Shown here: positions 1-27,508 of the stretch, piece after piece
Numbering within the stretch: the stretch's first letter is position 1
How the letters are laid out: each line of letters starts with the position of its first letter
Assembly (NCBI GenBank): GCA_001642005.1
Contig: LWCA01000409.1
Span: forward strand, 1 to 28,671
DNA: 28,671 bases
Direction of reading: 5' to 3'
Source of the DNA: Intoshia linei
Taxonomy: Eukaryota > Orthonectida > Rhopaluridae
Made by a program: the position numbers and the translations under genes
The notes under the pieces: generated by a model
Told to the model about the DNA's origin: nothing
Seen by the model: the letters and a program-made list of their open reading frames with translations, nothing else
Database searches by the model: none

Positions 1-1
1 T

Positions 2-193
2 AGTTAGTAATTTTTTTTATTATATTATTTTCTATTGAGTATTTTTATCAACTCTAAAATGCATATTTATCAATACACAATATATAAATTTATCGCTTTA
101 TAATATTATATATATAGAATGTAATCATATATAACTTTTACGTTAAGACTCGAATACAGTCAATTATTTAAACTGTTAAATTGTAGTAGGTAA
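2..193 (+). promoter_or_regulatory. Cluster of three YAG-NNN-GTAAW splice-like sites
   Basis: Sites begin (A of AG) at 2, 116 and 185, with three-base spacers TTA, AAT and TAG. Each has a YAG end, three bases, then GTAAT or GTAAA. The intervals between a GTAA and the next AG are 111 and 66 bases, which suits short introns. The spacer TAG at 187-189 would be a stop if it were kept in a reading frame, so these are unlikely to be ordinary coding exons. A role in recursive splicing is inference. Confidence 0.5.
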
Positions 194-226
194 ATTTATA
201 AAAACAACTCAATAAATGTACATTTG

Positions 227-243
227 GGTGTCCAGTGGACACC
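227..243. repeat. Short GC-containing hairpin
   Basis: GGTGTCC and GGACACC form a perfect 7-bp stem around a three-base AGT loop. It stands out because the surroundings are almost pure A and T. It could be a remnant of an element end or a structured RNA or DNA site. No function is recognised. Confidence 0.5.
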
Positions 244-680
244 GTATTGTTTTTTTAAATAAAAATCTAGCTCATTCATTTTGAGTATATAATAAATATT
301 ATCTATAGTTTTTGGGACTAATTATGAGGAATTAAAGCATCTTTAAAAGCTAAAATAAATGAGCTAGAAATAAATTTAAAACAAAATGGTTCGCAAAGCA
401 TGATAAACACACCAAAAGAATTACCAAAATAGTATCCATAGAAACGCAATAAAAACTGAATATACATAAAATAAATTATATTTTAAAGTTATCGTAACAT
501 TTTTGTATAAATTTCAATAATTAAATTTGAGGGGGTAAATATCAACTGATTTTATTTTTTTTGGATGATAAATTCTTAAAATCAAAAAAGATATCCACAT
601 GCAAAATAGTTTTTCTAATAAAAAAAGTTGACACCCTAATCTACATTGTACAATAACCTATAATCCAACAAAATTCTTTT

Positions 681-803
681 AGTTTGTAAAATTTAAATAC
701 ATTATTCACATTATTTAATATAATCTTAACTTATAATATAATACTTATATTATGACAGTATAGTATTATAATGGTTTATTTATCATATTTTATAGTTAGT
801 AAT
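681..803 (+). promoter_or_regulatory. Two YAG-NNN-GTAAW splice-like sites
   Basis: Sites start at 681 (TTAG-TTT-GTAAAA) and 794 (ATAG-TTA-GTAATT), with a possible 110-base intron between them (686-795). Both have T-rich sequence before the AG, as a 3' splice site would. Confidence 0.5.
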
Positions 804-1056
804 TATTTTTTTTTATAAATTGGTTACATTTTAATGTATTTATCGATACTAATTATCACCTTTAATAATTACATACAAAGCTGGTATGATACATATTTAA
901 ATAAGATAATATGTAACGTGTATGATTTATAATTATTATAATTCATTACGTTATATTTAATCTAATCACAAGACTCCGCGTAGGACTCTGTGCGTGTTTC
1001 ATATTCAAACGAATACAAATTAATTATAAATACATTATTAATGCAATTTATTTATT

Positions 1057-1382
1057 AGCTTGTAATTTTAATAATATGGATAGAAGTAGTTTTATTTTTT
1101 TGTTAAAATTATTGTACTTTATTCAATTTGAAAAGTTCATTGGTTATATCAACTTTTCTAGTAGGTAAATTATTTAAATGAAATAATTAAATATAATTTT
1201 TTTGACAATCATGCAAATTTTCCAGTTGGTAATATTTTGTCATTTTCTTAAAGTATTAGATTATACTAAATTATCAATTTCGTCAATATAGTCAGTAAAA
1301 TTTTTATTTTGACATACTTTAATAATTTAAACATGTTTAAATTAAATCATACTATAATTCTTTATAATCATTAGATTGTAAT
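1057..1382 (+). promoter_or_regulatory. Densest array: five YAG-NNN-GTAAW sites at 64-103 base steps
   Basis: Sites begin at 1057, 1160, 1224, 1290 and 1373 with spacers CTT, TAG, TTG, TCA and ATT. Reading each GTAA as a donor and the next YAG as an acceptor gives successive introns of 100, 61, 63 and 80 bases separated by 3-nt exons. Pyrimidine-rich tracts precede several of the AGs (for example the run ending CTTTTCTAG at 1161). The four intervening segments are not similar to each other, so this is not a tandem repeat. That supports convergent splice-site constraint over duplication. Confidence 0.55.
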
Positions 1383-1604
1383 TTTTAATATCTATTGTAT
1401 TTAATTATTATTAATATATTATGATATATATTATTATATACTCTATAATTATCATGTATATATAATATTATTTTTAATATATTATTTATAGTTCGATGTA
1501 ATTTTTTATATATCGACGGTTAGATAGCCTTAATTTATACCAACCGTGTTGTTATCTATGTGGATAAGCCTAGATATCATGGAAAAACGAAAATATATAT
1601 ATAC

Positions 1605-1630
1605 TATACATTATACATGTATAATGTATA
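1605..1630. repeat. 26-bp perfect palindrome
   Basis: Every base from 1605 to 1630 pairs with its mirror position around the centre ACATGT (1615-1620). The arms are A/T with one C/G pair each, so this could be a chance product of A+T-rich DNA or a cruciform. No function is recognised. Confidence 0.6.
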
Positions 1631-2366
1631 TATTTCTATATTAAATGATAATATCTAAAAAAGTTGGGAAAACTGCAGAACTCTGCAGTCTACCGATGTA
1701 AGTTATGTTGTTTTCATACCTTAATTTATATATTAAATGTGACAATTTATTATAGTAGGTATGTTTAAATCATTATTTTTTATATATCAAAATATATTCT
1801 AAATTTTATTTTTATCAATAGTTGTGTGTAATTTGCATTTATAAATTATGTTTAAAATTAAAATTAAAATCAAAACTGACGTTTTATATTTTTATAACTT
1901 AGACTAAGTCTTAGTACACTTTGAAAATTTTACACAGTTTAATTATCCGTCATTGTAAGTGCCTTACAAAAAATAATTAACTCATTTAATATAGTTATTT
2001 ACATAAAATGTAATAATACTGAATTACCACATTGTGGCATAATGTAATGATTAAGAAAACAAAACTTTTAATTTTGCTAGAAGTGATGGAAAAATTTTTG
2101 GCAAAAAGTGGGTGCTGATATGAAAACGTTTAGGAATCGATATACATGTATCTGTTATTTCCATCTTTTTATGCGTAAAGTGTCAATGAGTTGGCTACAA
2201 AGTTTGTAAACTATAAAAGTACATGTAATGATTTACATGTTAAATATTAACTTTATTATTATTTTATTAATTCAAATATTAACATATAATTAATTAATTT
2301 ATTATTAGTTATTTATTATTATACATTTGTTTTATTTTTACATGTCTTTATTCATTCAATCATAAT

Positions 2367-2375
2367 AGGGGGTAA
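2367..2375 (+). promoter_or_regulatory. YAG-GGG-GTAAA splice-like site
   Basis: ATAG followed by GGG then GTAAAA. A run of five G is rare in this window, and it sits exactly where the spacer and donor fall. A similar but weaker site (GAG-GGG-GTAAAT) lies at 530-538. Confidence 0.45.
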
Positions 2376-2956: not shown

Positions 2957-2965
2957 AGCTGGTAA
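2957..2965 (+). promoter_or_regulatory. YAG-CTG-GTAAT splice-like site
   Basis: A T-rich tract ending TGTTTTAG is followed by CTG and GTAATC. This is one of the better matches to a 3' splice site joined to a 5' splice site, with G as the last spacer base, as at the end of normal exons. Confidence 0.45.
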
Positions 2966-3087: not shown

Positions 3088-3248
3088 ATAACGTGTCCAG
3101 AAAAAATACGTACTATCACTTTTAGTTTATTTAGAATAAATTTTAAACCGAAAATTTTTTTTCGTCATTATAGATAAGTAGTTTTGGCTTGACATTTATC
3201 AAAAAATAAACTAAAATTGATAGTACGTATTTTTTCTGGACACTTTAT
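3088..3248. mobile_element. Foldback MITE of about 160 bp
   Basis: The ends are long inverted repeats. About 40 bp beginning GTGTCCAG at 3093 is mirrored by the sequence ending CTGGACAC at 3243; the outer 26 bp match perfectly and the next 14 have one mismatch. Five more bases outward (ATAAC / TTTAT) also pair with one mismatch, which sets the boundaries given. The middle is short and non-coding. The size and structure fit a miniature inverted-repeat element. I could not assign a superfamily and see no clear target duplication. Confidence 0.75.
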
Positions 3249-4792
3249 CTAATAGGCCTTGTATTATTAATTAACGATAATATTATTCACCATTAAATAA
3301 ATAGCATATTACAAGAAAATAAATAATATTACAGGAAAATATAGCATATTACTATTATAAAATTATAAACTGAAACTGGATTAATTGTCTATAGAGCAAA
3401 GTTTATTAACTAACGCTTAGTTTAACAAAATCACTTAAAGCTTAAGTTAAACGCATTCATTATTTTCTTAATTAATTATTTAATTTTATCCAATTCAATT
3501 ATAAATTCTAAATCATTTTTTAATCTCTTATTTTACTCTAATTAATTAGGTTAAATAACCATTGATAATAGCAATGAATAATAATTGATAATTGCAAATT
3601 GCCTGAAATACAACTTTATTAAGTTGCACTATTAAGTTTATGTAGCTTTATTTTAATTCCTAGTAAACTATTAAATTAATGCAAAAATTCATTAGTTATT
3701 ATCAAAAGCATTATTCTTGTGCATTATATTATAAATTTTCCTGTAATACTCTAATTTTAATGTTTAATCCTATTTATTTGATGCTCCATAATTATGAAGC
3801 CTTATTAATTTACTGTGGATTTGAATAACAATTATATTTAAAGTTCAAACCAGGACAACCATTCCATCAATTTGACAGTAAAGTTATTGATACTCATTGA
3901 TACTACAGGCTGTAGTAAAAAAAACTCCTCTTCGAGTTCATGCATTAGAACAAAACTCGTATCATAATGTGAAACTTTATACACTAGACACGTATATGAC
4001 TAATAGAGGTAAAGAGATAAAGACCTATACTTAATTTATACCGTTAAAACAATAATTTCGTTGCTATAAATTTTATCAGTTTATTATATATTTAATATAT
4101 AAAGCAAGTAATTTATTCTATCATGTGTAAATATCTAAAGTGTACATTAATACTGTATATTGTATTATATAACTACAATATTCTCTCTATAATTTGATAA
4201 TATTTCTCAAGTCGCAACAGTGTCAAATTTTAGATAATATTGTATTATTATAATAATACAAGTATATATTATTGTATAATTTCAATATCCTAATAAAATA
4301 TACAGTCAGGTCTCTCAATATTGACATAATTGTAATGGTAAATTATATAAATAAATTAAATTCATAAAAAAAGGTAAATCGTTTACAGTATTTATTTTGT
4401 GAGTAGGTTTTAATTCGCTGAGGACCAGAGTATAAAAAAATATTAAACAAGATTCTAGTAGATTCTAAGTAGATAAAACATACTTTATGGTTTTAACCAT
4501 AAAGATGCAACTTTTAAAGTGCAATTTATGATAATGCGAATGCTGATGATTTTAAAACTGTCTCATAATTTACGTTTCTTAAAATTCTAACACTCTGCCC
4601 ATTTTTTATAAATAGGAAAATTTTAATTTTTAGCCGATAAGGTGCGAGTTTTTTAATATAAAATTTATATTATTTACTGCGCTTTATAATATGGACTTAG
4701 AATTTTTGATTTGAAATTTCTGGAACAGTCATTTATCTAACTTAAAGTTACGCACACAGAAGGACACATTTTTAACATTTTCTATTTTATAT

Positions 4793-4961: not shown

Positions 4962-5434
4962 AGCAAGTAAATTAATTATTATTTAATGCTATTGTCTATT
5001 AACTGTTCATTTAACATTATTCAAAATAAAGTATAGAAATATTCAGAAAGTCACAAAGTTAATTTAGTTTTAATAGTTAATTAACTTGAAGTTTTTCCCT
5101 TTTAACTTAAACATCCGGGCATATACTATATTTTTTACCTTTAAGAGAAAAATGAATAAAAATTTTTTTCAATGGGTTAAAATCACATAGAAATTTAAAC
5201 TGTACTCAAGCCAAACTTTTTAACCCTGGTTTCCTCAATTATATGATTCTTTAGTGAATTAACATGTAAATTCAATTTTTCATCTGAATTTAACCTGTTT
5301 TGTTTTTTTAAATATGTAAAAAATTTTTAGTATTCTTAAAACAATAACACACATTTCGTCATCACTCTTGTGTTACATACAATGTATTAATTTTATAAAT
5401 AAATAATTTTATTATGTATTTATTAGAAAGTAAA
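4962..5434 (+). promoter_or_regulatory. Two isolated YAG-NNN-GTAAW sites
   Basis: Sites start at 4962 (ATAG-CAA-GTAAAT) and 5425 (TTAG-AAA-GTAAAA), 463 bases apart. They flank no open frame. Confidence 0.4.
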
Positions 5435-5871: not shown

Positions 5872-5881
5872 AGCAGGTAAA
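5872..5881 (+). promoter_or_regulatory. YAG-CAG-GTAAA splice-like site
   Basis: A T-rich tract (TTTTTTACTTATAG) is followed by CAG and GTAAAT. This is one of the strongest sites, because CAG|GTAAAT is itself a good donor. It lies 44 bases beyond the right end of the neighbouring hAT-like element, not inside it. Confidence 0.5.
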
Positions 5882-6322: not shown

Positions 6323-6410
6323 AGTTTGTAAATTTATTACTTTCTTAAATTATGTAAATAATTTCATAAAATTTTTTAATATTTTAATATATTTAATTGT
6401 AGTAAGTAAT
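6323..6410 (+). promoter_or_regulatory. Pair of YAG-NNN-GTAAW sites
   Basis: Sites start at 6323 (spacer TTT) and 6401 (spacer TAA), which leaves a possible 75-base intron at 6328-6402. The TAA spacer would be a stop codon if read in frame. Confidence 0.45.
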
Positions 6411-7480: not shown

Positions 7481-7651
7481 AGGAAGTAATTAATTTCTGT
7501 ATTAGTCATTTTTCAAATATATATTGATAATATATTAGTATATTCCACATTAATGTACATTTATTACGTTATATGTTATAATAAATTGTATAATACATTG
7601 ATCATCGAGTTATGACATAAATATAATTTATCTTAATTTTTAGTATGTAAT
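7481..7651 (+). promoter_or_regulatory. Two YAG-NNN-GTAAW sites
   Basis: Sites start at 7481 (TTAG-GAA-GTAATT) and 7642 (TTAG-TAT-GTAATT), 161 bases apart. The second follows a T-rich run ending ATTTTTAG. Confidence 0.45.
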
Positions 7652-8131
7652 TATTAATATTTAATATAAATTTTAATTTTTGATTTCTTTTTATATCATA
7701 ATACATGTACTACATGTAAGTCATTACTCTTAGTGTCATGTAAAGAGTTATTTTTTCCCATCAACCTCAATATAAAATTTGTCAAATTTAAAATATTATA
7801 AATATTAATATCAAATGGAGACTGATATTTATAATTCTAAAAATAGCACTTAATGGCGCTCGAAATGAATTAATTCCATTTTAATAAAAGTGTAAAAGTT
7901 TTTATGTTTTCAAATCAATCAAACTTATTTTTATTTTAAAAAAAATTTCCCCTAATTTTCAATTATTTCAAAATTTCACAATTAATGTTCATGACTACAT
8001 GTATAAAAAGGTATAAGATAAATATATTTAAAATTCTGAAAAAAATATTTTTAATTGTAATATCAATTCCACTTTTCACGACACTGCATTGTCTATTTTT
8101 TTAAACAAGGTAATTGAAAATTTATTCTAAC

Positions 8132-8386
8132 AGTCAGTAAAATATTTATACATTAAAACTTAAATAATTTATATTAAAACAAAACCAATTTTACATATTT
8201 TTTTATACATTTTATCCTAGTCGGTAAATGAAATACATGTATAAACATTATATTTTTTTCAATGTTTTTATTATTTATTTTTAAATTCAATTTGGTTCAG
8301 ATGGTAATTATTCACACGAATACTAATAATAATTATGATAATGTATCAGAATAATGATTAACATTTTTTAAACAATAGGTGGTAAA
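8132..8386 (+). promoter_or_regulatory. Regular array of four YAG-NNN-GTAAW sites
   Basis: Sites start at 8132, 8219, 8299 and 8377 with spacers TCA, TCG, ATG and GTG. Steps are 87, 80 and 78 bases, giving possible introns of 84, 77 and 75 bases. The intervening sequences do not resemble one another. Pyrimidine-rich tracts precede the sites at 8219 and 8299. A fifth, GC-donor version (TTAG-ACG-GCAAAT) lies near 8553-8561, and a further good match starts at 8771. Confidence 0.55.
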
Positions 8387-8770: not shown

Positions 8771-8780
8771 AGATTGTAAT
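8771..8780 (+). promoter_or_regulatory. YAG-ATT-GTAAT splice-like site
   Basis: ATCAG followed by ATT and GTAATA. It is the last match before a 2.8-kb gap filled largely by repeats and hAT-like elements. Confidence 0.4.
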
Positions 8781-11014: not shown

Positions 11015-11616
11015 ATATACAGTAATCGATAATGGAATAATAATTTATACAATAAGAATAAAAAAGATAAAATTTACTCATATTTACATTTAAACTACAT
11101 TTTTTGTATATAATTCCTGATTCCACTTTATTTATTTTTTTGATTTTATCAAACAAATTTATACTTTCTCTTAATTTTCATTATCCTTAGTTTTCAAACG
11201 TGACGCCAAATTACCTTTATTTATTAGTTGTAATTTAAATTTGTCTTAGTTATAACAAAAATAGCACAAAATTATTGTGCAATTTGCTGTATTTATAATC
11301 AAGATTTCACTGTATTTTTATTTTACGCCATCAAATGTTACATTTGAATTATTTTTAAATTTATTTATTCATTTTTATAATTGACTAATTGTTGAATATA
11401 TCATACGTAAAACACCTTTTTATTATGCAAATTTTTATTAATATCGACTAATTATTTTGATAATATTCATCATAATTTTTGAATAATTAGCGGTAAACAT
11501 AGCTTATTGATAGACTAACGGTGTCAGCTCTCCGCAGTCCAGTGTACTTACATTTATATACATTTTTAGCTCACATAAAATATTTTTACTTATTTGTATA
11601 TTTGATAATTTTTAAC

Positions 11617-11786
11617 AGTGCGTAAATTAAGACTTTCAATTTAATATAAAATTAATTGTAATCATAATTATGTAATATAATATTACACCATAATTTATTA
11701 TAATACTATGTACTACTTTTAACTTCAATTATTAAAACAGTCTTGAAGTATTTAATTTTTGATTATTTTATATTTTAGTTAGTAAA
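11617..11786 (+). promoter_or_regulatory. Two YAG-NNN-GTAAW sites
   Basis: Sites start at 11617 (AACAG-TGC-GTAAAT after a T-rich run) and 11777 (TTTTAG-TTA-GTAAAA), 160 bases apart. Confidence 0.45.
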
Positions 11787-12667
11787 ATGTTATTATGTAG
11801 ATTAATAGTTTTGTAATTTCCACAATTTTTCATAATATCATTTTTTATAAAAATTGTTTTGAAGTGTTAATTTTGTGAACCGCTTAATTGATTTCGGCCA
11901 CATCCTAATCCTAGCGGTATTATAACACCGGACAATAAAATGTATATTCTAAAAGATAGAAGGAAATATAATTCCTAATTACTGTAATAATATCATATTA
12001 ATATTGTTTTATACAAAGAATTATTGCATACTTTATATCTTAAACGATCTAATTTGGGTAACTAATATTTGGTAAATACATAATAAATATGGTGAATCTT
12101 TTTAAATATGGTTATACATTTTTTCAATTTAACCTTTACGAAAAAATGCTCAAAATAATTTACATTTGATAAAGTAAGATTTTTTTGATTTTATTAGAAT
12201 TAATATACAAATTAGACAATAATTATTTAATTTTATACAATAAATATAAAAAGTGAAAATAAAAACGTTCATTATATAAATATATTATTTACTCATTTAT
12301 TTTACGCATTAAAGTATAATATTAAATGTACATATAATAAGTAATAATATATAATATTATGTATATATACAATAATCTTAATATTTTTAAGAGAGTAAAT
12401 TTCAATAATAATCAATAATCAATGAAAAATGTATTATAAAACAGTTAAAATTGAAATACAACTGGAATTTTTGGATATTTGGATTGAGGTACAAAAACGA
12501 TTGCTTTGCACCTATATATAATGTTTCAACTTTTATTATTAACAATGGGATCACAATTTTTATATTAATTCAAAATCCGTTTAATAGAAAAATATTGAGA
12601 AGCAATATACAAATTTTATACGCTAAGACATATAACACATATCATTAATATTAATATTTATTATAAT

Positions 12668-12677
12668 AGAATGTAAA
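12668..12677 (+). promoter_or_regulatory. YAG-AAT-GTAAA splice-like site
   Basis: ATAG followed by AAT and GTAAAC. The AAT spacer recurs at four sites in the window (116, 12668, 22526, 27499). Confidence 0.4.
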
Positions 12678-12828
12678 CCTTCATTAATTGTTTTAATATA
12701 TTTCCATTTCCGATCGGACAGTTTTAAACATTTATGTTCTAATACATTTTAAATTTTTAATTAATATATCGGCTAAATGAAAATAAATTTTTTAGTTTGA
12801 AATTTAGTAACACTATTTGACAATTTCA

Positions 12829-13138
12829 ATGTTTTATTAATACGACACAATCTTGTGAGAGACTTTAAAAAACTGAAATATCGAGTTGCGCTATTTTTGA
12901 AACCAAGTGTAAAGATATATTTCAAGTGAAAAATTTGATAATAATTATTTTTTTTAGTTTGTATATATAGTAAGGTTTAACTNATGTTTTATTAATACCA
13001 CACAATCTTGTGAGAGACTTTAAAAAACTGAAATATCGAGTCGCGCTATTTTTGAAACAGACTGTAAAGATATATTTCAGATAAAAAATTTGATAATAAT
13101 TATTTTTTTTAGTTTGTATATATAGTAAGGTTTAACTT
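12829..13138 (+). repeat. 155-bp tandem duplication with an N at the junction
   Basis: Two adjacent copies (12829-12983 and 12984-13138) differ at only a handful of positions. Shared landmarks include CACAATCTTGTGAGAGAC and TTTGTATATATAGTAAGG. The ambiguous base at 12983 falls exactly at the junction. That position suggests an assembly join, for example of two haplotypes, rather than a true duplication. The second copy runs directly into repeat D copy 2. Confidence 0.85.
13059..13068 (+). promoter_or_regulatory. Weak YAG-ACT-GTAAA match inside the tandem copy
   Basis: ACAG-ACT-GTAAAG is present only in the second tandem copy; the first copy has AAGTGTAAAG and lacks the pattern. It is probably a chance match. 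Confidence 0.2.
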
Positions 13139-13605
13139 TTTTATCGAATTTTAGAAATTTAAAGAATACAGGGCCGTACGGTATGAGGAATGCAATAAAA
13201 ATATTACCTGTAGTGTTTTTTTTAATATTATTACAAAAACTTCGGCCTGTTGTGCAATTTAAAAATACCCATAATATTTTGAACGGAAATTTATTATTAT
13301 TTTTTTATGATTATTATTAATTAGTATTTTTACGATGTCATTATCTAATTCACTTTCAATGTATTAACCTATCTAAATTTTGTAGGTCTTTGACAGTATT
13401 TATGGTTCTATCGTTACATTATCACATAAAGAAACTACTGGGAAACTGTATAAATTCATTTTTTTAATAGAAGTGGAAAGGTTGACTCTTAAAAATTGAA
13501 TTCTATGGTAGAACACTTAACAGTGAAAAAATATCATAATCATGAAAAATACTTTTTTTTGATGATTGTATCATTATTATACAACTTACAATCATACTTA
13601 TTGAC
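13129..13605 (+). repeat. Dispersed repeat D, copy 2
   Basis: This is the inverted partner of 9005-9478. It carries the same CAGGGCCGTACGGTATGAG landmark near its left end and TTCTATGGTAGAACAC near 13500. The 72-codon frame at 13496-13714 begins inside this copy. Because the equivalent frame is not kept in copy 1, I do not call it a gene. The pair encloses about 3.65 kb containing two hAT-like elements and the tandem duplication. Confidence 0.65.
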
Positions 13606-14085
13606 CGTTATCTACTTTGTAAAAACAGCAGTTAGCTCAACCAAGGCTGGACTTTTTAAATTCTACCAAAATATTAAATGCAATAAAAAAATTTTACATA
13701 TAAAATGCTACTAATCACTACAGTATTGTTTCCACAACTCGCCAACTTTATAACTCGCCATTAATTTAAAATATAAACTAAAACCTTTAAAATCATTTTT
13801 CAATATAACTGAAGTTATTTTGTATTAAATTTTACAATTTGTATTAAAATGTACATTTTATTGCAATTTAACCTTTAATTTAATGGTTTTATCTATTGTT
13901 TCTATAGCTTTAAATTCAATATCTCCCCAACTTTTTCTAAGTCCCAAGAATGGTAAGTTATAGAGAGAATACTGTATTACCTATTCCTCGACAGAACTAA
14001 GTATTGTTTGTACAAAGTAAATAACAGTCAAACTGGTTTCTTAATATATACTTTTCAAATATGTTTTAATATTTTTGAATCTTTT

Positions 14086-14095
14086 AGCAAGTAAT
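14086..14095 (+). promoter_or_regulatory. YAG-CAA-GTAAT splice-like site
   Basis: A T-rich tract ending CTTTTAG is followed by CAA and GTAATT. It is the last strong site upstream of the VPS10 gene; the next strong one is at 19780. Confidence 0.45.
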
Positions 14096-14777
14096 TTATT
14101 GGCATAATTTATTAATTAAAAATATTTGAAAAGTAATTAAACCAGTATAGTACCTTTCCAATAAATAAAAAAATTTATCGTTGGATTTTAAAACATTTCA
14201 TTAATTCATCATATAATTTATTTTTTACGTTCTATCACACTATTAGATCTCAACTTTGATTAATTCACTTGAATACGATTTTAAATTTATCGAAATTGGA
14301 AAATAATTTAAAGTCTAAATTATAATTTTTTTTTTTAAATTGAAAAAATTTGTGCTTTTTGTTAAAGTGAGAAAATGGCATGGAAATCATTTTTATGAAA
14401 TAAAAATGTCATCTTAACATACTGACTACATTTCCATTGATTAAAAATCGTCCCTTAATGGTCGGAGGTGCGGTTCTATATTATAGAAATAAAAAAAAAA
14501 ATTAATTTTTAAAGAATCTATAACAAAAATTATTACAATGGAAAGTTGACACTTTAATATTTGAAAAAATAAATTAAATTCACTAGCCAAAATAGAATCA
14601 TTTTTGGTAAATTTAAGCCGAATTAACAAATATGTCATAAATTTATTTTTAATTATAGTCAATGTATGTAAGGGTTAATAATCATTAATCATTCATCAAT
14701 ATAAATTATTTCATGTGTATCAAAAAATTTCAAAATAATAGATAAATGGGCGTGTGTATAGTACAATGTATAATTGT

Positions 14778-14836
14778 CAGGGATGGCCGATTTGCTATTA
14801 ATAACAGCTCTGAGCTGATAATGGCAAACATCACTG
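14778..14836. mobile_element. Possible 59-bp hAT-like remnant
   Basis: CAGGGATG at the left and CATCACTG at the right form inverted ends, with inner TTTGCTATTA and AATGGCAAA also roughly mirrored around AGCTCTGAGCT. The size is tiny, there is no target duplication, and the ends match imperfectly. It may be an internally deleted element or simply a hairpin. Confidence 0.35.
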
Positions 14837-15107
14837 CTGTTCAAATAAAAATCATATATTATAAATATAATATTATAATAATAGCGTTTTTCAAAAAAAT
14901 TATATTCACGTTTTAACCCATATGGTCACAAAAAAATGAAATATTGAAAGGTGAATAACGTTAATATTACGCAAAGTATACTTCTTTTTTTGTGAACATA
15001 CTTAATGCTCGTTTATATTTATATAAAATTTTTGATACACATTCGTTTAAAATTAGTTAAGTGTATTATTTTAATAATATATATTGAGGATATATAACAT
15101 TTTTTGT

Positions 15108-15530
15108 TTTAAAAAAATATTTCGGAAAAAAATATATATGAATGCTAAAATACTTTTTTGACTGTGAAAGCGTCACTTATTCAAATTGAAATTTTTTTTT
15201 GTGTGTTAACAGAATACAACTGTACCACCTGTAAATTTTTTTAAATTCTAGGGCTATTTTCATTAAAAAAAAAAATAATTTGGGGTTTTGGCCTTGAAAA
15301 TATATGTTTTTTTAAATTCTCCAACTTTTTTGATTTTCAAAAAAAGGACAATTAGGCTTTTTAATTCGTAAGATGTGAGTTTGAGAGGTTGAAATTTATT
15401 TTGACAACACACCGGAAAAAACTGTAATTGAAATATGGACTTTATGAAATTCTAAGACTGGTAGTTATTGAAATAAACGGTAACACACACACAGACAAAC
15501 AAAGCATTTTATATATGTAAGGATAGTAAA
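15108..15530 (+). repeat. Dispersed repeat family E, copy A
   Basis: This copy shares a colinear set of landmarks with 19933-20420 and, inverted, with 23022-23607: AAATATTTCGG at the start, TACCACCTGTAAATTTTTTT, TTTGGGGTTTTGGCC, AAAAAAAGGACAATT, TTGAAATAAACGGTAACAC, an ACACACAGACAAACAAA tract, and a TAAGGATA end. It is non-coding and lacks the extra TGATGCGGATTTT unit found in the other copies. It sits about 0.8 kb upstream of the VPS10 start. The class is unknown and it is probably a non-autonomous element. Confidence 0.75.
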
Positions 15531-16317
15531 TTTTAAATAATGCACCTAAACACAACTCATTAAAATATACAAAAATTTTTAAATTTTCTCTACAAACAAA
15601 GCGGGAATTTAAGTTATTGTAAAACAAAATTAAGAAAAATACGAAAATAAACTTAAATTTAGTTATTTTTTGGAAATGATTTAAAAGACAAGCGCTATTT
15701 CGTTAACAATATTTTTGAAAAACAGTTTTTGACAACGTGATTTATATTCAAAATTACACATAATCTACCTAGTACGTTTAAAAATTGCAAAATTTAAAAT
15801 AAATGTGGCCACCCTATTGCACATGACGTATATCAATTTTGATAAAATTGTTTAAAATATTGTTTGATAGATAGTATAAGATTTGAGTGATATCGTAAAA
15901 AGTATAAAATATTGCTGTTTATTTATAATTATTATTATGCATATGTATAAGGGTTAATAAAGTGGTTTTTAAAAATGTCAGTAAAATATCAATTTTTGTT
16001 GAATCTCAAGGTGTCATCTTTTATTTTTCACAAAAGTGCTGAAAATAATTAATTTGTGTAACGGAAGAGCTAAATTAAAAAAAGGTTAAGAAACCTCATA
16101 TAAAACAACAGACTCAAATATGAATTATACCACGTGACAATATTTTGATTAAATATAGCAGTTGAGTAAATAAAACTTTTGCAAATATTAGCATTTATAT
16201 TTAAATAAATTAAAAATTAAAGATATCAAGAATATCAAAACAAGAATCCGAGATATAAATTAAATAAAAAAAGCTTGTAAGACGCATAGTAGGAGAAATT
16301 TACATTTAAAAATAATC
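15531..16317. other. VPS10 upstream region
   Basis: This A+T-rich sequence precedes the receptor gene. No TATA box can be told apart from background in this composition. A weak AAG-CTT-GTAAG match lies at 16272-16280, inside the likely 5' untranslated region. An in-frame stop at 16261 with no ATG between it and 16318 supports the chosen start. Confidence 0.45.
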
Positions 16318-18492
16318 ATGCGTATACTAGTGATAGCTATCGTATATTTAGTGTACGGTGAATTGAAAGGATTAAATGATTCACATATAACATTAGAATT
16401 AATAGAAAAGCAGGATTTTATGCATTATAGGTGGTCCCACGCTAAAACTTGGCATATATATTTGGAAAAAAGACGATATCGTAAAACCTTAAATGTATAT
16501 ACCTTTGATGTGAATCTTTTGAATTACATTCATATAATTAAACTTGAAAATGTTGAAAAAATATACACACATGTTTACTCTAAAGATGGTATAATTTATA
16601 TTTCGTATAGTTTTTTGGGTACAAAAAATGGACTAGAAAAATACTACAATTTAATACCAACTAATACATTCAAGTATACACTTGTTTCAACAATTGAAAG
16701 CAAAGAAAAAATAGAAATATTAAAAAGATCGACATGTCATAGTTATGAAATAGAGATAAAAGTTTGTTATAATCCATCAATGCTATACCTTTTATACAAG
16801 ATTGATTTTAAAGAAAATTTCAAATTAATTAAATTGACCAAATACATTCAGAATCAATTCATCATAAAAATTATATACTCAAAAATTTATCAACATTCCA
16901 CAAATCCAGATTTTAACAAACACACAATATACATTACTACAAGTACAGATATTCTGTATCGATTTAACATGAAAAATGGACAAATGAAACAATTATTCAG
17001 TGGAGTCAAAACATTCTTTCAGGTAAATAAATTTTTGTTTATCGTTGTGAATAATGGTTTAAAATTGTTCTCCAATAACGGCGGCGATAATTTTAATCAA
17101 ATCTATTTCATGGATAGCCATTTTGACAATGTTTACTATAATCAAAAAAGTTTAAAAATTTCAAAATTTCTCACAATAGGTGAAAGGGTATTATTTTTTC
17201 TTAAAAACCAAGAAAATACTGAATTAAAGGCTGATATATTTATCAGTGATATCTATGCAAATAAATATCGTCCTATAACCAATATTACTACAACTGATGT
17301 TCAATATGTTCATTCATACACTGTCTCCAGTATGGTCTACATAGTACACTTTCTAATGACATCAAGCAATACATTTCTTTCATTTGACAACGGAGACAGT
17401 TGGAATTTAATCAGTATTTCAAGTGATATACATGATTATAGGTGTTTCATTGATGATTATTATGCACAGATAGGAACAATTATTATGACATGTAAAAAAG
17501 TTCACAAATTAAAGTTGTTTCTTAGTTTCGATGGTGGACACATGTGGAATACATTCTACAAAATTTACAATATTCATTGTAACGAAATAAATACAAATCA
17601 TAACCTAAAACTATACTTTTTTATTGGATACGGGATTAACAATATTTATCTATCTCTGACAGGTGGTCAATCCTGGAAAATTATAAAATTTCAATATTTA
17701 ACCAAATTTTCATTTCTACACTATTACCAATCTAAACAAGAAGAAATTTATTTTATAGCCATCAATACCCGCCCAAAATATGCATTAAAACTAAAATTTA
17801 GAGAGGCATTAATAGAATGCGATAAAAGTAATGTTACAAATTATGTACGAAGCAATGACGAGAGAATGATTTACAAACGCACCAATAGTGACCATTGTTA
17901 TTCCAAAAATCTTGCACCATTAAGAAACATTACCATCCAATGTCACCATTTGGACGTATTTTGTGATTTTAATTATGATAGAATTGACACACAATGTGTT
18001 CCTTCCAGATATGAATTAATTTCCAAGGCCATTTTCTCTTGTATCAACAATTTAATTTACCAATTTACTTCATACGGTTACAAAAATCCTTATAATGATA
18101 AATTTTATGAAAAATATTGCAAGTCAGACAAATTTAAATTAAAAAAAAATACTAAAATTACCAAAAATAAGAAATGCGATTATGATTCTGATTCATCTCA
18201 TTCAATTTATCAAAGTATTATTAATTATGGGAAAAATAACAATTATCATAGAATTCGGAATACTATCATTTTGTCCGTATTCTTTTTCATGCTTGCTATC
18301 ATTGCACTATTTTTTCTATCACTAACTATTAAGAAATTCTGTTTTCAAGGATTTATTAAAAATATTGTATTTTCAAATACTCAAAACAGATTCATCAAAA
18401 GATCTTTAATCCAAAATGAAATCCAAAATCAAGATAATGGTAATGTACAATATCATCCACTTAAAAGCCAATCTGATAATGTTGATGAATAG
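16318..18492 (+). CDS. VPS10-domain sorting receptor (sortilin-like), intronless
   Basis: This 724-residue protein is predicted to be a type I membrane receptor that sorts cargo between Golgi, endosome and cell surface. Residues 1-14 form a signal peptide. Asp-box repeats typical of VPS10 beta-propellers are visible as SNNGGDNF (252-259), SFDNGDSW (355-362), SFDGGHMW (403-410) and SLTGGQSW (446-453). A Cys-rich module follows, with cysteines at 501, 527, 542, 549, 560, 575, 601 and 620; the RTNSDHCYS and FCDFNYDR stretches resemble the 10CC region of sortilins. Residues 649-671 are one membrane segment. The 50-residue tail carries YHPL (712-715), a YxxPhi adaptor-binding motif, and ends in an acidic NVDE. 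N-glycosylation sequons are at 322, 505 and 537. It is shorter than the roughly 830 residues of human sortilin. The start is the first ATG after an in-frame stop, with A at -3. There is no intron. The family call is firm; cargo is unknown. Confidence 0.88.
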   Translation: MRILVIAIVYLVYGELKGLNDSHITLELIEKQDFMHYRWSHAKTWHIYLEKRRYRKTLNVYTFDVNLLNYIHIIKLENVEKIYTHVYSKDGIIYISYSFLGTKNGLEKYYNLIPTNTFKYTLVSTIESKEKIEILKRSTCHSYEIEIKVCYNPSMLYLLYKIDFKENFKLIKLTKYIQNQFIIKIIYSKIYQHSTNPDFNKHTIYITTSTDILYRFNMKNGQMKQLFSGVKTFFQVNKFLFIVVNNGLKLFSNNGGDNFNQIYFMDSHFDNVYYNQKSLKISKFLTIGERVLFFLKNQENTELKADIFISDIYANKYRPITNITTTDVQYVHSYTVSSMVYIVHFLMTSSNTFLSFDNGDSWNLISISSDIHDYRCFIDDYYAQIGTIIMTCKKVHKLKLFLSFDGGHMWNTFYKIYNIHCNEINTNHNLKLYFFIGYGINNIYLSLTGGQSWKIIKFQYLTKFSFLHYYQSKQEEIYFIAINTRPKYALKLKFREALIECDKSNVTNYVRSNDERMIYKRTNSDHCYSKNLAPLRNITIQCHHLDVFCDFNYDRIDTQCVPSRYELISKAIFSCINNLIYQFTSYGYKNPYNDKFYEKYCKSDKFKLKKNTKITKNKKCDYDSDSSHSIYQSIINYGKNNNYHRIRNTIILSVFFFMLAIIALFFLSLTIKKFCFQGFIKNIVFSNTQNRFIKRSLIQNEIQNQDNGNVQYHPLKSQSDNVDE

Positions 18493-18797: not shown

Positions 18798-19932
18798 TTT
18801 TCATATAACTGAAAAAATATAAATTGACTCCTTTTATTGACGAATGGTTAAATGAAAAAATTGACTAAATTTTTTTTATGTAGTTTAAAAATTAAATTAA
18901 TAATTATACACTATAATTTATAATAATACAATATTAAGGTGTCAAGTTGACACTCTCAACACTCATTGTAGCGTATCACAGTCCCACCATGCTTTATTTA
19001 TTTCCAAATTCGAAGAAAGAAATAAAANTGATAGTAATCTAAGATTTTATTTTTTTTGAATTCAGTGATATGGTCATTAAGGATTTGGATAAAATTTGTG
19101 GTATAACTATAATTCTATTGTTTTACATTTTTATCTTTGCTTTCACATATTGTAACTTTAATTTTCAGAATTACACTCATTGTCAGAATATCTATAAATA
19201 CATAATTTACAGAATATATATAAAATTGATATATTATACTAATATTAATTCGGTGTTTTAATTGACCCAATTTCATTATTAAAACATCCCAGGCCCAGTC
19301 AAAAAAAATAACCTATAGTTCAAATTGATTAGGATTAAATGAGTGAAATCTGATAAGATAATGTGTTCTATCGAAAAAAATATTATTATTAATTTGGTGA
19401 CCATTTTTTACTAAAAATTATCATTATCTAATAAATTACAAATCGAAAGCTTTTATTGGCGAAACTTGCGCTAGTTTTTATATTTATTTTAAATAATTAA
19501 TGAGATAATTGATTATGATGATTCTTGTATATTTTTTAATATTAGCCTAATATTATTAGGAATGACACATGAGAATTTTTCATATCAAATTGAATCTCTT
19601 GAATGTGAATTTTTTATCATAATTATCATATACACTTTTAAAATGAAAAAATTGCATCGAGGTGTAAAATAATTTTTTCTAATTAACAAAAAAAGATGAA
19701 AGCCTAATACATGTATAATATAATTTATATATAAACAAATACATGTTTAGAAATTTTATATTCTAATTACATTTAATTTAGCGTGTAATTATAATTATTA
19801 ATTTATTTATCAATAAAATAATAATAATAAACATAATTATAAAAGACGATGACATGTTTAACCGTGACAAGGGTGATTTTAGCATTAAAATTAATAATAG
19901 ATAAATAAAAATAAATGTTTTACATATTGTTA
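18798..19932. other. A+T-rich stretch downstream of VPS10
   Basis: No gene is recognised; a 63-codon hydrophobic frame at 19070-19261 (+) is of background length. A small perfect inverted repeat GTGTCAA-G-TTGACAC lies at 18939-18953, an ambiguous base at 19028, and a YAG-NNN-GTAAW site at 19780. Confidence 0.5.
19780..19789 (+). promoter_or_regulatory. YAG-CGT-GTAAT splice-like site
   Basis: AATTTAG is followed by CGT and GTAATT. It is the first strong site downstream of the VPS10 gene and lies on the same strand as all the upstream sites. Confidence 0.45.
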
Positions 19933-20988: not shown

Positions 20989-20998
20989 AGATAGTAAA
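20989..20998 (+). promoter_or_regulatory. YAG-ATA-GTAAA splice-like site
   Basis: A run of T followed by AAAATAG precedes ATA and GTAAAT. Confidence 0.4.
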
Positions 20999-21577: not shown

Positions 21578-21857
21578 AGTTGGTAATTTTATGTAAATAA
21601 CAGCATAGAAAATATAATATAATATTATATATTTATAATATATAATAATTATTTAAATCAATTGAGACTAATATTTTTAATACTAAAATACTTTACAAAA
21701 TATATAATTTGTATAAATTATATAATATATACATGATATATAAAATATGTATAATATATACATTGTATATATTTTGATAAGCCATTTTTGTAAAAATAAA
21801 TGTCATTATTGACGCATGTGTGTATACTTTATAAATACATTATCAATAGCTGGTAAA
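21578..21857 (+). promoter_or_regulatory. Two strong YAG-NNN-GTAAW sites
   Basis: Sites start at 21578 (CATTTTTTAG-TTG-GTAATT) and 21848 (TCAATAG-CTG-GTAAAT), 270 bases apart. Both spacers end in G, as exons do before a donor. The first has one of the best pyrimidine tracts in the set. Confidence 0.5.
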
Positions 21858-22357: not shown

Positions 22358-22535
22358 AGGACGTAATAATATTTGTTTTATTTTGATATTTTATGACATT
22401 TGAATTCATTTTTATTAAAAGTAACTTAATAATGATTATTTAATATAATTAGAAGGTAAAATATCAAAATATTAATTTAGTATAAGATATATTAATAAAA
22501 TTAATTTTTATATAAATTATAATACAGAATGTAAT
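22358..22535 (+). promoter_or_regulatory. Array of three YAG-NNN-GTAAW sites
   Basis: Sites start at 22358 (GAC), 22451 (AAG) and 22526 (AAT), which leaves possible introns of 90 and 72 bases. The intervening sequences are unrelated to each other. Confidence 0.5.
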
Positions 22536-22878: not shown

Positions 22879-22952
22879 AGTATGTAAATTTGTACTAATC
22901 AATTCAAAAAACAACTATGGAAAATATTTACATTTATATTTTAGTTGGTAAA
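22879..22952 (+). promoter_or_regulatory. Pair of YAG-NNN-GTAAW sites 64 bases apart
   Basis: Sites start at 22879 (GTTTAG-TAT-GTAAAT) and 22943 (ATTTTAG-TTG-GTAAAA), giving a possible 61-base intron at 22884-22944. This equals the shortest spacing seen anywhere in the window. Confidence 0.5.
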
Positions 22953-23021: not shown

Positions 23022-23607
23022 TTATATATCCTAACTTATATAAAATGCAACGCGATTTTTGTTTGTCTGTCTGTCTGTGTTACTTTTTGAAATAACCAGC
23101 ACTCTTAAAATTTTTTAAATATTACATTTCAATTACAGTTTTTTTCGGGGCGTATAATAAGATAAATTTCAACCTCCCAATTTTACATCTTAAGGGTGAA
23201 ACATCCCTATTGTCCCTCTTTTTGAAAATTAAACGAGTTGGAAAATTTAAAAAAATATATACGCTGATGCGGATTTTAAAATCATAAACATTATCATAAT
23301 TTTAAATGCTGATGCGGATTTTAAAATCATAAACATTATCATAAATTTAAATTTAAAAAAATACACTGATGCGGATTTTAAAATCATAAACATTATCATA
23401 AATTTAAATTTAAAAAAATTATTTTTTCATGGCCAAAACCACAAATTCCCTTCCTTTTTTTTGAAAGCAGCCCTAGAATTTTAAAAAATTTACAGGTGGT
23501 AGAATTGTATCATGTTAACACACATAAAAAATTTCAATCCGAATAAGTGACGACTTCACGGTAAAAAAAGCATTTAATGCATATATTTTTTTTGCAAAAT
23601 ATTTTAT
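23022..23607 (-). repeat. Dispersed repeat family E, copy C (inverted)
   Basis: Read on the minus strand it follows the same order of landmarks as copies A and B. On the plus strand it begins ATATATCCTAACTTATATAA, then TTTGTCTGTCTGTCTGTGTTAC, and ends near GCAAAATATTTTATTA. Its interior carries three units of the TGATGCGGATTTT repeat, against one in copy B and none in copy A. Confidence 0.75.
23264..23420. repeat. Three tandem units inside repeat copy C
   Basis: Units begin CTGATGCGG at 23264, 23309 and 23366, with steps of 45 and 57 bases. Each continues through TAAAATCATAAACATTATCAT; the second and third also share an A+T tail. The near-identity of the units points to recent expansion by slippage or unequal exchange. 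Confidence 0.85.
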
Positions 23608-23844
23608 TACAACAAAAAATATGAAATAATTAACTGTCTAAAAATTTAAAAAAAGGATTATTCTGATAGAGCTTATTCCAGTTAATATAATTACACAATT
23701 ACAACCCCAGAAATCTACGCATTCCCGATGAAAAATAATTTTTAATATATTATCAACCAATATTTTTCAAATATTTCGAATTAAAATCAAAAATTGAAAA
23801 GCAAATTGATCCTACAACATTGAAAATGACAAATAGGTTTTTAT

Positions 23845-24060
23845 AATTTTATTTTTTCTGGAATTTATACTATTTATGACAATTTTTTAATGAGTGTTTT
23901 TACTTTATTGTTAAGATTATACAACTCATTCTGTCTAATAAATTATTTCTTTAATTTTATTTTTTCTGGAATTTATGCTATTTATGACAATTTTTAGGAT
24001 TGGACGTTTTTACTTTACTTTTAATATTATACATACATTCTGTCTAATAAATTAAAAAAA
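23845..24060 (+). repeat. 108-bp tandem duplication
   Basis: Two copies start at 23845 and 23953, sharing ATTTTTTCTGGAATTTAT, CTATTTATGACAATTTTT and CATTCTGTCTAATAAATTA. They differ by scattered substitutions, so the duplication is not very recent. Confidence 0.8.
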
Positions 24061-24398: not shown

Positions 24399-24507
24399 AG
24401 CATGTAAATTATAATTTAATTAGCTACATTTTATATTGTAAAAATAAGGGTCACATCTACACAGTTGATAAAATAGTAACTATTTTTTGATTTTAATAGT
24501 CTGTAAT
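24399..24507 (+). promoter_or_regulatory. Two strong YAG-NNN-GTAAW sites
   Basis: Sites start at 24399 (CATTTTTTCTAG-CAT-GTAAAT) and 24498 (TTTTAATAG-TCT-GTAATT), giving a possible 96-base intron at 24404-24499. The first has a textbook pyrimidine tract. Confidence 0.55.
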
Positions 24508-25226: not shown

Positions 25227-25236
25227 AGTTCGTAAT
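25227..25236 (+). promoter_or_regulatory. YAG-TTC-GTAAT splice-like site
   Basis: ATTATATTTCAG followed by TTC and GTAATT. The acceptor half is a near-ideal 3' splice site. Confidence 0.45.
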
Positions 25237-26066
25237 TTAAAAATTTAAATTATTATAAAAGTATTATACTATTAAAAAGAAAAATTTAATCAATTATGAT
25301 GACACCATATATAATGATTCATCACATATATGGAGATGATGAATTGAGATAATATCTAAAAATCCGTTAAGTGCAACCTAAAATTAAAATTTTATGAAAT
25401 TTTAATATTTTAAATTTTATTTTTAGCCTAAATTTAAGATAATTATTATACTGAGAATTGTAAATATACAAAATTGTGCCTAAAAACTACGTTATAGTTA
25501 ATTTATACTAAAAGAATTTACTAACAGTTCGTGACAGCTATTGTGCTAGGTGAAAAATGTAAGCTTTCCCAATTGAATTCAAACTTTCTACCCCTTTACA
25601 TCTCTTGATATGGTGTATATATCAACAGCACAAGTTGTTCTAGGCTATCAAATTGCTTACTTCGTGGTAGGGTAAAATCTTTTATTATATTGAATGGAAC
25701 ATAAATTTAGTGTTATTAAATGCAGAAATAATATCATCAATTCTTTTTATTTATTAATTTAACCTTTTTAAACTAATCAATTGAATTTTGAATTAAAATT
25801 AAATTAAAAATAGTTAATCATACAAAAAATGCGTATTAAGATAAAATCAAATAGTACGATAGAGATATTCAAGTGCGTACTTATATTTTCATAATATTTT
25901 ACAATAATCGAGTTTATATTAAATAATCGTTTTTTTTTTACATGAAATTTATATTGAGTATTAAATATTTTATTTTTTCTAGCATACTGGCTGTCGCTGA
26001 CTTTAAATACAATACAAATTATTTAAAAACAACCATTGTGGTATAGTCAATAATATTTTACTAATT

Positions 26067-26076
26067 AGCATGTAAT
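26067..26076 (+). promoter_or_regulatory. YAG-CAT-GTAAT splice-like site
   Basis: ACTAATTAG followed by CAT and GTAATA. ACTAAT resembles a branch-point sequence but lies too close to the AG to serve this acceptor. Confidence 0.4.
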
Positions 26077-26670
26077 ATTAAGCTATTATATTTAATTTCT
26101 TACTTTTTAAATTAATATTATATTTTATAATAGCTAAAGGTTAATTTTTAAAAACATTCAAATTTTCATTTTAAATGTAAATTTGTGAATTTAAACTCAT
26201 CGTATCATAAGTTTACACATTTCAAATAACTGTTACTTTAATGACGAAAATAATAATCGTATACCAATGACGGAACATCCCCAAAAGCGGTACGATAATT
26301 TAAAGTTCAGTTCAAATAGATTTAATTTATATTATCGACCAAGCATGGTTACAACCTTTCGAGCTGCCATATTCAAATGAAAAATTATTCGTATCACTAC
26401 GAATGCATATGTAGTGCAGTCAGAACTAGATGATGACATTGTAACGAGAGTTCTTTTTAATTAAATTAAAAAAATTAATTGAATTGTGTTTTTTAGTATA
26501 AATTATTTACGTTTACAATCGATTTATTCATTGTTTGTTTATCAGAAAATCTTTTTTTATTTCTTTACAGCTGATTATATTATAAATTGAATAATGATGC
26601 CTATAAACTCAAGTTAAAACTGAAATATTGAGATTAATTTTTTACCTACAAACCATATTACAAAAAAATT

Positions 26671-26706
26671 AAAATATTCTCTGGTGTGAACACCATAGAA
26701 TATTTT
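26671..26706. repeat. Strong hairpin, 16-bp stem with a 4-base loop
   Basis: The arms 26671-26686 and 26691-26706 pair with one mismatch around TGAA. The inner part, CTGGTG / CACCAT, is less A+T-rich than its surroundings. It is too short for an animal microRNA precursor. It could be a foldback remnant. Confidence 0.65.
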
Positions 26707-26900
26707 TTTATCCTATTTAATTATAAATTCTAATTAAAAATACACAATTTATTATTTTTTGTAGTGAATAAATTATGATAATTTATTTATAATAAAATAT
26801 AAAGTTGTATATAAGCAGTCAACAATTACCTATATTATTATATTATTATTAATATTAAGTTATAGTAATTTGATTGAACATATATTTAATTGACATATCA

Positions 26901-26970
26901 ATATTGAATAAAGTCGACTAATATTGAAATGTATTTAGCAATATTGAATTATCATCATCGATATCGAATT
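26901..26970. repeat. Four copies of ATATTGAAT at exact 20-bp spacing
   Basis: The core ATATTGAAT or a one-base variant begins at 26901, 26921, 26941 and 26961, while the intervening 11 bases differ completely. Constant spacing of about two helical turns with divergent spacers is unlike ordinary slippage. Binding sites on one face of the helix would look like this, but it may also be an eroded tandem repeat. Confidence 0.6.
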
Positions 26971-27001
26971 AAATTTTAATCAAAATTAGATATAGAATAG
27001 A

Positions 27002-27048
27002 CAGGGGTGGCACCAGCAATAATGTGCTGGCTGTAGACAGCACATCGC
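27002..27048. mobile_element. Possible hAT-like left end with internal hairpin
   Basis: CAGGGGTGGCACC resembles a hAT terminus. It is followed by ATGTGCTG and CAGCACAT, an 8-bp perfect stem. No matching right end or 8-bp target duplication was found, so this is at best a truncated copy. It stands out as a less A+T-rich patch. Confidence 0.35.
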
Positions 27049-27498
27049 AAATATTAAAAATACTATTATGAATTGAAAAATTAGTAATTTTATTAACATT
27101 CAGACATTTATTATTTGTAAAATTAATCAGAAAAATAATAGGTTTTAGTGTATATNTAAACAATTATATATATCATTATATTATTAATAATATTAAGTTA
27201 TAGTAATTTGATTAATTACGGAAAATTTTGCTATATAATACATCATATTTTATATATCATAGTACACATTGTACACTTTATAAATGCAATCTAGTTTATA
27301 TAATTTCAAACCTATACTTATGTTTATGAGTTTAAATTTTGTATAAGTAATATTATATCCAAGGGTGCTTTCTCAATTTAGATTATTTACTTGTTTTTGG
27401 ACCCCACTAATATTAGTACGGTAGAAATAAGTGTACATGATAGAACCCAGCTAGCACAAATTAAACATTTTAAATTAAAACTTAATGAATAATATCAT

Positions 27499-27508
27499 AG
27501 AATGTAAT
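27499..27508 (+). promoter_or_regulatory. YAG-AAT-GTAAT splice-like site
   Basis: ATCATAG followed by AAT and GTAATA. It is the last site in the window and, like the others, on the + strand. Confidence 0.4.

Follow-up and report, generated by a model that had tools for sequence, protein, structure and literature searches.

Arrays of predicted one-codon exons in the genome of the orthonectid Intoshia linei

Intoshia linei is a tiny parasitic orthonectid, noted for its simplified body and genome. A 28,671-nt stretch of its DNA (GenBank assembly GCA_001642005.1, contig LWCA01000409.1, forward strand; the whole stretch is called the window here, and its contig C897) carries many copies of the motif YAG-NNN-GTAAW, in which an acceptor-like and a donor-like half stand exactly three bases apart. 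A sequence-only reading had proposed that these were either 3-nt microexons or recursive splice sites, and the question raised by the locus is whether the three bases are kept as exons or discarded with the introns. We found that the microexon half of the proposal was supported and the non-coding recursive half was not. The sites appear splice-like, arrays of one orientation occur on other contigs, and triplets joined in order would form an open frame. The window is very probably a fragment of a protein-coding gene whose detected internal exons are almost all 3 nt long, with GT-AG introns, and about 20 contigs most likely carry such arrays of one-codon exons, an extreme type of micro-exon gene.

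A paired splice-like motif at a fixed spacing

A recount reproduced exactly all 43 coordinates reported for the forward strand, with 2 matches on the reverse strand. Neighbouring values of k, the spacer length between YAG and GTAAW, were as rare as had been said, with 6, 2, 3 and 2 forward-strand matches at k=0, 1, 2 and 4. When the window was scanned from k=0 to 399, the mean was 2.7 matches per strand, and the runner-up length gave 8 on the forward strand and the best length 9 on the reverse. The A+T content put at about 82% came to 77.6% by base counts, while the preference for G as the last spacer base was recovered at 13 of the 42 profiled sites, the remaining site (TAG at 1-3) having the spacer TTA. 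Neither half was biased by strand when counted singly (504/518 on +/- for YAG and 151/146 for GTAAW), so what stands out is their combination at 3 nt. The motif was also slightly broader than first stated, since TAG with GTATA (15 versus 2.2), TAG with GTATT (10 versus 2.3) and AAG with GTAAA (9 versus 2.0) were over-represented at k=3. Successive sites of the strict pattern were never less than 64 nt apart, with 15 of the 42 gaps within 64-114, a floor that looks like a minimum intron length.

The two halves, read earlier as splice sites, appear to behave as the acceptor and donor of introns in an ordinary gene. By eye, the short introns of a BiP-like HSP70 gene run from GTAAT or GTAAG to TAG, the same types as in the arrays. 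A splice-context score was built from the acceptor and donor contexts of the arrays on C897, C615, C559 and C527, ignoring the triplet itself. At a threshold of 9 these four training arrays gave 208 sites at k=3 versus 9.9 per decoy spacing, the 208 not being independent of the score, and the same score gave 279 sense versus 20 antisense sites in 15 held-out segments. The implied introns (n=372) had a minimum of 34 and a median of 125 nt, with 204 spanning 55-150 nt, which is compatible with the published median intron of 57 bp in I. linei (PMC6543705). Furthermore, TTAAT occurred 10-25 nt upstream of YAG 101 times versus 39.4 expected (2.6-fold) and may be a branch-point-like element. A DNA- or RNA-binding motif other than a splice signal would share the fixed spacing and the strand bias, but its chance is next to negligible, given that donors and acceptors are of the same types as in the ordinary gene, that the minimum gap is intron-like and that the frame described below is open.

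Arrays of the same kind were found across the assembly (34.65 Mb, 1319 contigs, the basis of all genome-wide counts). Motif pairs numbered 128 at gaps of 53-83 and 95 at gaps of 84-114, versus 40 each for a reversed control pattern, and three motifs in series occurred 15 times versus 0. The corresponding pair pattern with a 6-nt spacer gave 23 versus 50 for its reversed control, revealing no k=6 arrays. A tally by contig covered 195 hits, made up of the 95 with wider gaps in full and 100 of the 128 with narrower gaps. Among the hits listed, 32 contig-strands held at least two and 21 at least three, none with mixed orientation, and 136 of the 195 fell on contigs with at least three; on 2 of the 32 (C478 and C501) overlapping hits count one motif twice. 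Control hits scattered evenly over the contigs would give 1.1 and 0.007 such contig-strands. Strict sites on one strand versus the other numbered 54/0 on C615 (20 kb), 34/0 on C559 and 24/0 on C527 in the parts read.

In all, 20 array-bearing contigs were examined, each in part or whole. To be selected, a smaller array segment needed at least five sites (k=3, score 9) on one and the same strand, which excluded loci L001-L010, L014, L028 and L029 (C1, C2, C3, C31, C54, C93, C277 and C279; C54 had 4). The 19 array segments gave 355 sense versus 9 antisense sites at k=3, an excess due in part to selection because segments were picked on the number of sites on one strand; stop counts are unaffected because the score ignores the triplets. 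Three nucleotides dominated among spacers of 0-30 in the 19 segments and of 0-399 in the window. Sense counts at other multiples of three were 29, 17, 19 and 31 (k=6, 9, 12 and 15) versus 6-13 at non-multiples from 1 to 14, a mild excess suggesting that some longer in-frame exons exist as a minor class. For spacers above 39 the scan covered the window (to 399) and C615, C559 and C527 (to 99), and other arrays may contain longer exons that escaped notice.

Another contig of the assembly encodes an intact HSP70 that matches HSP70 of I. linei at 100% identity over 592 residues. Long array introns carry dispersed repeats that are also present on this HSP70 contig, indicating that arrays and HSP70 gene come from one genome. 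Among the matches listed, such repeats, shared among long introns of C897, C615, C527 and C1046 and with other contigs, were about 66-86% identical. Introner-like spread was considered and rejected: an intron-to-intron similarity search (371 introns, 71 matches) yielded, in the 25 matches listed, no common short element, only dispersed repeats in introns of at least a few hundred nt and two local duplications. A COX1 match was not found in the assembly, from which mitochondrial contigs may be absent.

Reading frame across the joined triplets

Consecutive 3-nt spacers were joined with introns placed after codon position 1 (phase 1), and stops were counted. This frame was first seen in the triplets of the window, where permutation of their order gave P=0.023 for the lack of a stop before the last codon. 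In the 15 held-out segments the predicted frame contained 4 stops in 264 codons and the two alternative frames 25/279 and 21/264; when the exons of each contig were put in random order, the predicted frame averaged 12.5 (P=0.0006). Across the 19 segments only the joining of each exon to the next was stop-poor (6/469); at the eleven remaining offsets between -3 and 8, stops numbered 17-29 of 342-488. All six stops lay at introns longer than 200 nt (6/164) and may reflect an overlooked exon.

At introns of up to 200 nt, no stop occurred at 305 junctions of these segments (a set without C488, C872, C1112, C896 or the extensions of C347, C171 and C1212), versus a permuted mean of 11.7 and a minimum of 2 in 20000 permutations. 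In the two remaining frames the same junctions gave 26 and 23 stops, and joining the exons in reverse order gave 18. When sites were restricted to the strict motif, the short introns again gave 0/176, versus 17 and 13 in the other frames and 11 in reverse. Contigs added later behaved alike in phase 1 (C872 0/24, C1112 0/13, C896 0/9, and C171 including its new middle 0/25). Over 22 segments and introns of any length, phase 1 gave 10/554 stops, phase 2 44/554 and phase 0 45/576; at short introns the values were 2/353, versus 24/353 and 28/353, the two stops lying on C347 and C488. To our knowledge, nothing besides ordered translation of triplets produces such a depletion of stops.

These data bear on two explanations in which the triplets code for nothing. 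Tandem acceptor-donor pairs do look like the ratchet points of recursive splicing (PMC8605326), which would subdivide long introns and leave no triplet in the mRNA. A ratchet that leaves nothing behind gives no reason for stops to vanish at adjacent junctions, and they vanish solely for adjacent triplets joined in order. The zero-spacer AG|GT form was not enriched either (21 sense and 21 antisense at k=0 in the 19 segments), and gaps of 55-150 nt, which make up 204 of the 372, are not those of subdivided long introns. We therefore consider the recursive half of the earlier proposal very unlikely; the open frame of the joined triplets would imply their retention in mRNA. The other explanation, a non-coding RNA with 3-nt exons and a frame open by chance, would fit the lack of a homologue and the weak cross-junction association reported below, but 0/305 where permutation averages 11.7, together with a like result on contigs that played no part in finding the frame, makes it extremely unlikely.

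The assumption that every array is in phase 1 was corrected by C488 and C347. On C488 (L054, C488:22500-30193) phase 1 contained 3 stops in 17, while phase 0 read 18 open codons, DEDMDFERNPFGALDIGN; phase 2 was open as well (0/17). The G-rich position of this array was exon base 1 (9/18) and not base 3 (3/18), a shift indicating that G-richness is more than a donor signal, and on composition phase 0 is preferred, although not proven. On C347 stops numbered 3/33, 3/33 and 4/34 in phases 1, 2 and 0; in phase 0 the middle 21 exons (11412-15867) were open and then followed by TAA, and its phase is unsettled. Phase thus looks uniform within an array, usually but not always phase 1.

Several results, among them these two exceptions, weigh against an interpretation as one-codon exons. 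Bulk counts of the motif at k=3 showed no genome-wide enrichment, which the sequence-only reading had expected (3103+2765 versus 4218+4134 for the reversed control), because the arrays occupy a small part of the genome. Of the 10 phase-1 stops in the 22 segments, C347 and C488 had three apiece, while C897, C527, C64 and C200 had a single one each. The strict motif alone, over introns of any length, gave 7/336 stops, versus 32 and 28 in the other frames, 17 in reverse order and 9/317 when one exon was skipped. At short introns this skip-one control was low too, with 6/197 (2/85 for the strict motif) when one exon was skipped, 5/132 for two and 7/96 for three; random pairing at the permuted rate would give about 7.6 skip-one stops versus the 6 observed. 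That such stops occur suggests, on small numbers, that selection keeps the complete ordered product and not skipped forms. Beyond stop avoidance, codon association across junctions was weak, at 0.106 per junction for offset 1 versus 0.059 and 0.072 for offsets 2 and 3.

The predicted products weigh on the same side. That of C615 had no homologue in a set of 5.8 billion proteins or among solved structures, three array products gave only sub-threshold matches in Pfam, and the products were mutually dissimilar, with no paralogy among the comparisons listed. A search combining donor and acceptor scores with phase returned only candidates for terminal exons, none of them confident.

A possible splicing route and known systems

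We consider it likely that about 20 genes have coding regions made almost wholly of one-codon exons assembled by obligatory 5'-to-3' sequential splicing, with the full ordered series kept open. The flanking introns would range from about 35 nt to several kb, and the exons would keep one phase within an array. A protein would become readable only once dozens of successive splicing events were complete. In phase-1 arrays each codon would be split between neighbours, taking one base from the end of an exon and two from the start of the exon that follows, and in the putative phase-0 array (C488) each exon would be a whole codon. Introns would probably be removed singly from the 5' end, because 3 nt leave no room for acceptor and donor factors at the same time. 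With every ligation a usable donor (exon...NNN|GTAAW) would form again for the intron that follows, amounting to a recursive-like ratchet that retains three bases per step. The products would be fast-evolving peptides, as in other micro-exon genes.

Alternatively, the coding arrays might have their spacers removed from DNA by programmed elimination, or be recently dead genes of like architecture. The boundaries are spliceosomal, with GT-AG and the branch-like TTAAT, and stops are scarce in most arrays, so that elimination or recent death is highly unlikely compared with splicing of living genes.

Exon definition as usually described cannot operate on a 3-nt exon, which would make one-codon arrays well suited to studies of ordered, recursive-like splicing. 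If the interpretation is true, exons shrink to one codon throughout long parts of a gene. Standard gene finders would probably overlook such genes, and similar ones may hide in other AT-rich parasite genomes, where the pattern finds candidates from the DNA.

The closest relatives in kind may be the micro-exon genes (MEGs) of Schistosoma mansoni, whose variable, secreted products are encoded by 10-20 exons per gene of 6-81 bp (3-81 in the abstract), commonest at 15 bp and mostly multiples of three, with introns of 0.1-5 kb, and which are hard to annotate automatically (PMC10526429). The arrays described here, known from DNA alone, share the consecutive tiny exons in multiples of three. They differ in that 3 nt is nearly the sole size detected and that one array holds about 80. 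The exons of aphid bicycle genes are longer and of varied size, and bicycle proteins carry a paired-cysteine (CYC) motif, whereas cysteine is absent from eight array products of at least 25 residues; single cysteines are scattered in the shorter or later-read arrays C171, C200, C872 and C1112. Bicycle genes have about 17 exons each, many of them small and internal and nearly all starting at codon position 2, and a 2000-residue megacycle protein has more than 100 microexons (PMC9168663). The start at codon position 2 is common to most arrays here, with C488 as an exception and C347 unsettled.

In Drosophila, ratchet points juxtapose acceptor and donor so that intron pieces are removed stepwise (PMC8605326). 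They appear as zero-nucleotide exons and leave nothing in the mRNA, whereas here 3 nt would be kept and coding. Isolated exons of 3 nt or 1 nt, as in homothorax (micro-Ex8) and Arabidopsis APC11 (PMC4674806; PMC7392893), show that the spliceosome can include such sizes, in which they are like the arrays, but they are single and lie within ordinary genes. Among the open-licence papers listed by full-text searches, judged by titles and the beginnings of abstracts, no account of comparable orthonectid arrays appeared, the I. linei and I. variabilis genome papers lying outside that scope. Within it, the predicted arrays would be new and would extend the micro-exon gene kind.

Predicted exons and products of the window

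At threshold 9 the array product of the window reads LGVFTLVVNLGAVPTKTVLRIFIDGDLLKKFFSNTYIAGQELFAFFP and is followed by a stop, the sole one, at the last site. The list below comprises the 49 sites with a splice-context score of at least 9, plus 4-6; strict sites follow the original pattern. Omitted are the weaker relaxed sites at 3909, 16274, 16586, 22999, 23496 and 28557 (scores 7.1-8.8) and the strict site at 13061. The latter (A at 13059) lies inside a 155-bp tandem repeat, scores below 7 and is probably a chance match.

1..27508, +, predicted array of 3-nt exons, about 48 residues with introns after codon position 1
4..6, +, predicted 3-nt exon TTA; strict, acceptor context truncated at contig start
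118..120, +, predicted 3-nt exon AAT; strict, score 12.6
187..189, +, predicted 3-nt exon TAG; strict, score 15.8
532..534, +, predicted 3-nt exon GGG; relaxed, weak acceptor GAG, score 9.1
683..685, +, predicted 3-nt exon TTT; strict, score 14.3
796..798, +, predicted 3-nt exon TTA; strict, score 16.1
1059..1061, +, predicted 3-nt exon CTT; strict, score 13.6
1162..1164, +, predicted 3-nt exon TAG; strict, score 14.0
1226..1228, +, predicted 3-nt exon TTG; strict, score 12.1
1292..1294, +, predicted 3-nt exon TCA; strict, score 14.6
1375..1377, +, predicted 3-nt exon ATT; strict, score 13.9
1756..1758, +, predicted 3-nt exon TAG; relaxed, donor GTATG, score 11.3
2369..2371, +, predicted 3-nt exon GGG; strict, score 14.2
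2959..2961, +, predicted 3-nt exon CTG; strict, score 12.4
3224..3226, +, predicted 3-nt exon TAC; relaxed, donor GTATT, score 10.4
4105..4107, +, predicted 3-nt exon CAA; relaxed, acceptor AAG, score 14.1
4964..4966, +, predicted 3-nt exon CAA; strict, score 12.9
5427..5429, +, predicted 3-nt exon AAA; strict, score 14.5
5874..5876, +, predicted 3-nt exon CAG; strict, score 14.3
6325..6327, +, predicted 3-nt exon TTT; strict, score 14.5
6403..6405, +, predicted 3-nt exon TAA; strict, score 16.1
7483..7485, +, predicted 3-nt exon GAA; strict, score 15.0
7644..7646, +, predicted 3-nt exon TAT; strict, score 16.9
8134..8136, +, predicted 3-nt exon TCA; strict, score 13.6
8221..8223, +, predicted 3-nt exon TCG; strict, score 14.5
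8301..8303, +, predicted 3-nt exon ATG; strict, score 12.5
8379..8381, +, predicted 3-nt exon GTG; strict, score 14.0
8773..8775, +, predicted 3-nt exon ATT; strict, score 15.0
11619..11621, +, predicted 3-nt exon TGC; strict, score 12.5
11779..11781, +, predicted 3-nt exon TTA; strict, score 14.0
12392..12394, +, predicted 3-nt exon AGA; relaxed, acceptor AAG, score 13.2
12670..12672, +, predicted 3-nt exon AAT; strict, score 13.0
12958..12960, +, predicted 3-nt exon TTT; relaxed, donor GTATA, score 12.4, within the 155-bp tandem repeat
13113..13115, +, predicted 3-nt exon TTT; relaxed, donor GTATA, score 12.4, second tandem-repeat copy
14088..14090, +, predicted 3-nt exon CAA; strict, score 15.5
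15871..15873, +, possible 3-nt exon ATA; relaxed, donor GTATA, score 9.7, weak
19782..19784, +, predicted 3-nt exon CGT; strict, score 16.2
20991..20993, +, predicted 3-nt exon ATA; strict, score 15.3
21580..21582, +, predicted 3-nt exon TTG; strict, score 15.4
21850..21852, +, predicted 3-nt exon CTG; strict, score 13.3
22360..22362, +, predicted 3-nt exon GAC; strict, score 14.3
22453..22455, +, predicted 3-nt exon AAG; strict, score 13.4
22528..22530, +, predicted 3-nt exon AAT; strict, score 15.5
22881..22883, +, predicted 3-nt exon TAT; strict, score 13.5
22945..22947, +, predicted 3-nt exon TTG; strict, score 16.8
24401..24403, +, predicted 3-nt exon CAT; strict, score 16.6
24500..24502, +, predicted 3-nt exon TCT; strict, score 13.5
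25229..25231, +, predicted 3-nt exon TTC; strict, score 16.6
26069..26071, +, predicted 3-nt exon CAT; strict, score 13.9
27501..27503, +, final array site AAT; strict, score 13.1, forms stop codon TAA with the preceding exon

The 5' end of the window array is probably truncated by the contig start. Because joining to the preceding exon yields TAA, the site at 27501..27503 possibly marks the start of the last exon. Elsewhere, the arrays on C615, C1046 and C559 contained 80, 68 and 45 open codons. In the parts read, arrays end inside the contig on C329 and C615 and one begins inside the contig on C351, suggesting that there are at least two genes. MEG products carry a signal peptide encoded in the first exon; for the arrays the first-exon candidates were only weak, for example at 1236-1290 on the reverse strand of C351.

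An intact 724-aa open reading frame (ORF) at 16318-18492 lies on the array's strand (+) within the largest gap between strict motifs. It has a hydrophobic N-terminus, Asp-box-like repeats (BNR, E=0.53) and a C-terminal hydrophobic helix, and by eye it looks like a VPS10/sortilin-like receptor. No Pfam family scored above the cut-off, and its only match in the homologue search was itself; an AF2 model was uninformative (mean pLDDT 36.8). The ORF could belong to the array transcript or represent a nested gene.

The 155-bp tandem repeat (2.1 copies, 12829-13144) duplicates the candidate exon TAG-TTT-GTATA at 12958 and 13113, and by such duplication of DNA an array may grow by one codon. A 206-bp tandem duplication, 99.5% identical, at 8115 and 8333 of L041 (C559) likewise copies an exon, CGA, together with intron sequence. 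In the window, further tandem repeats lie between exon sites at 23263-23419 (units of 45-57 bp) and 23844-24054 (108 bp).

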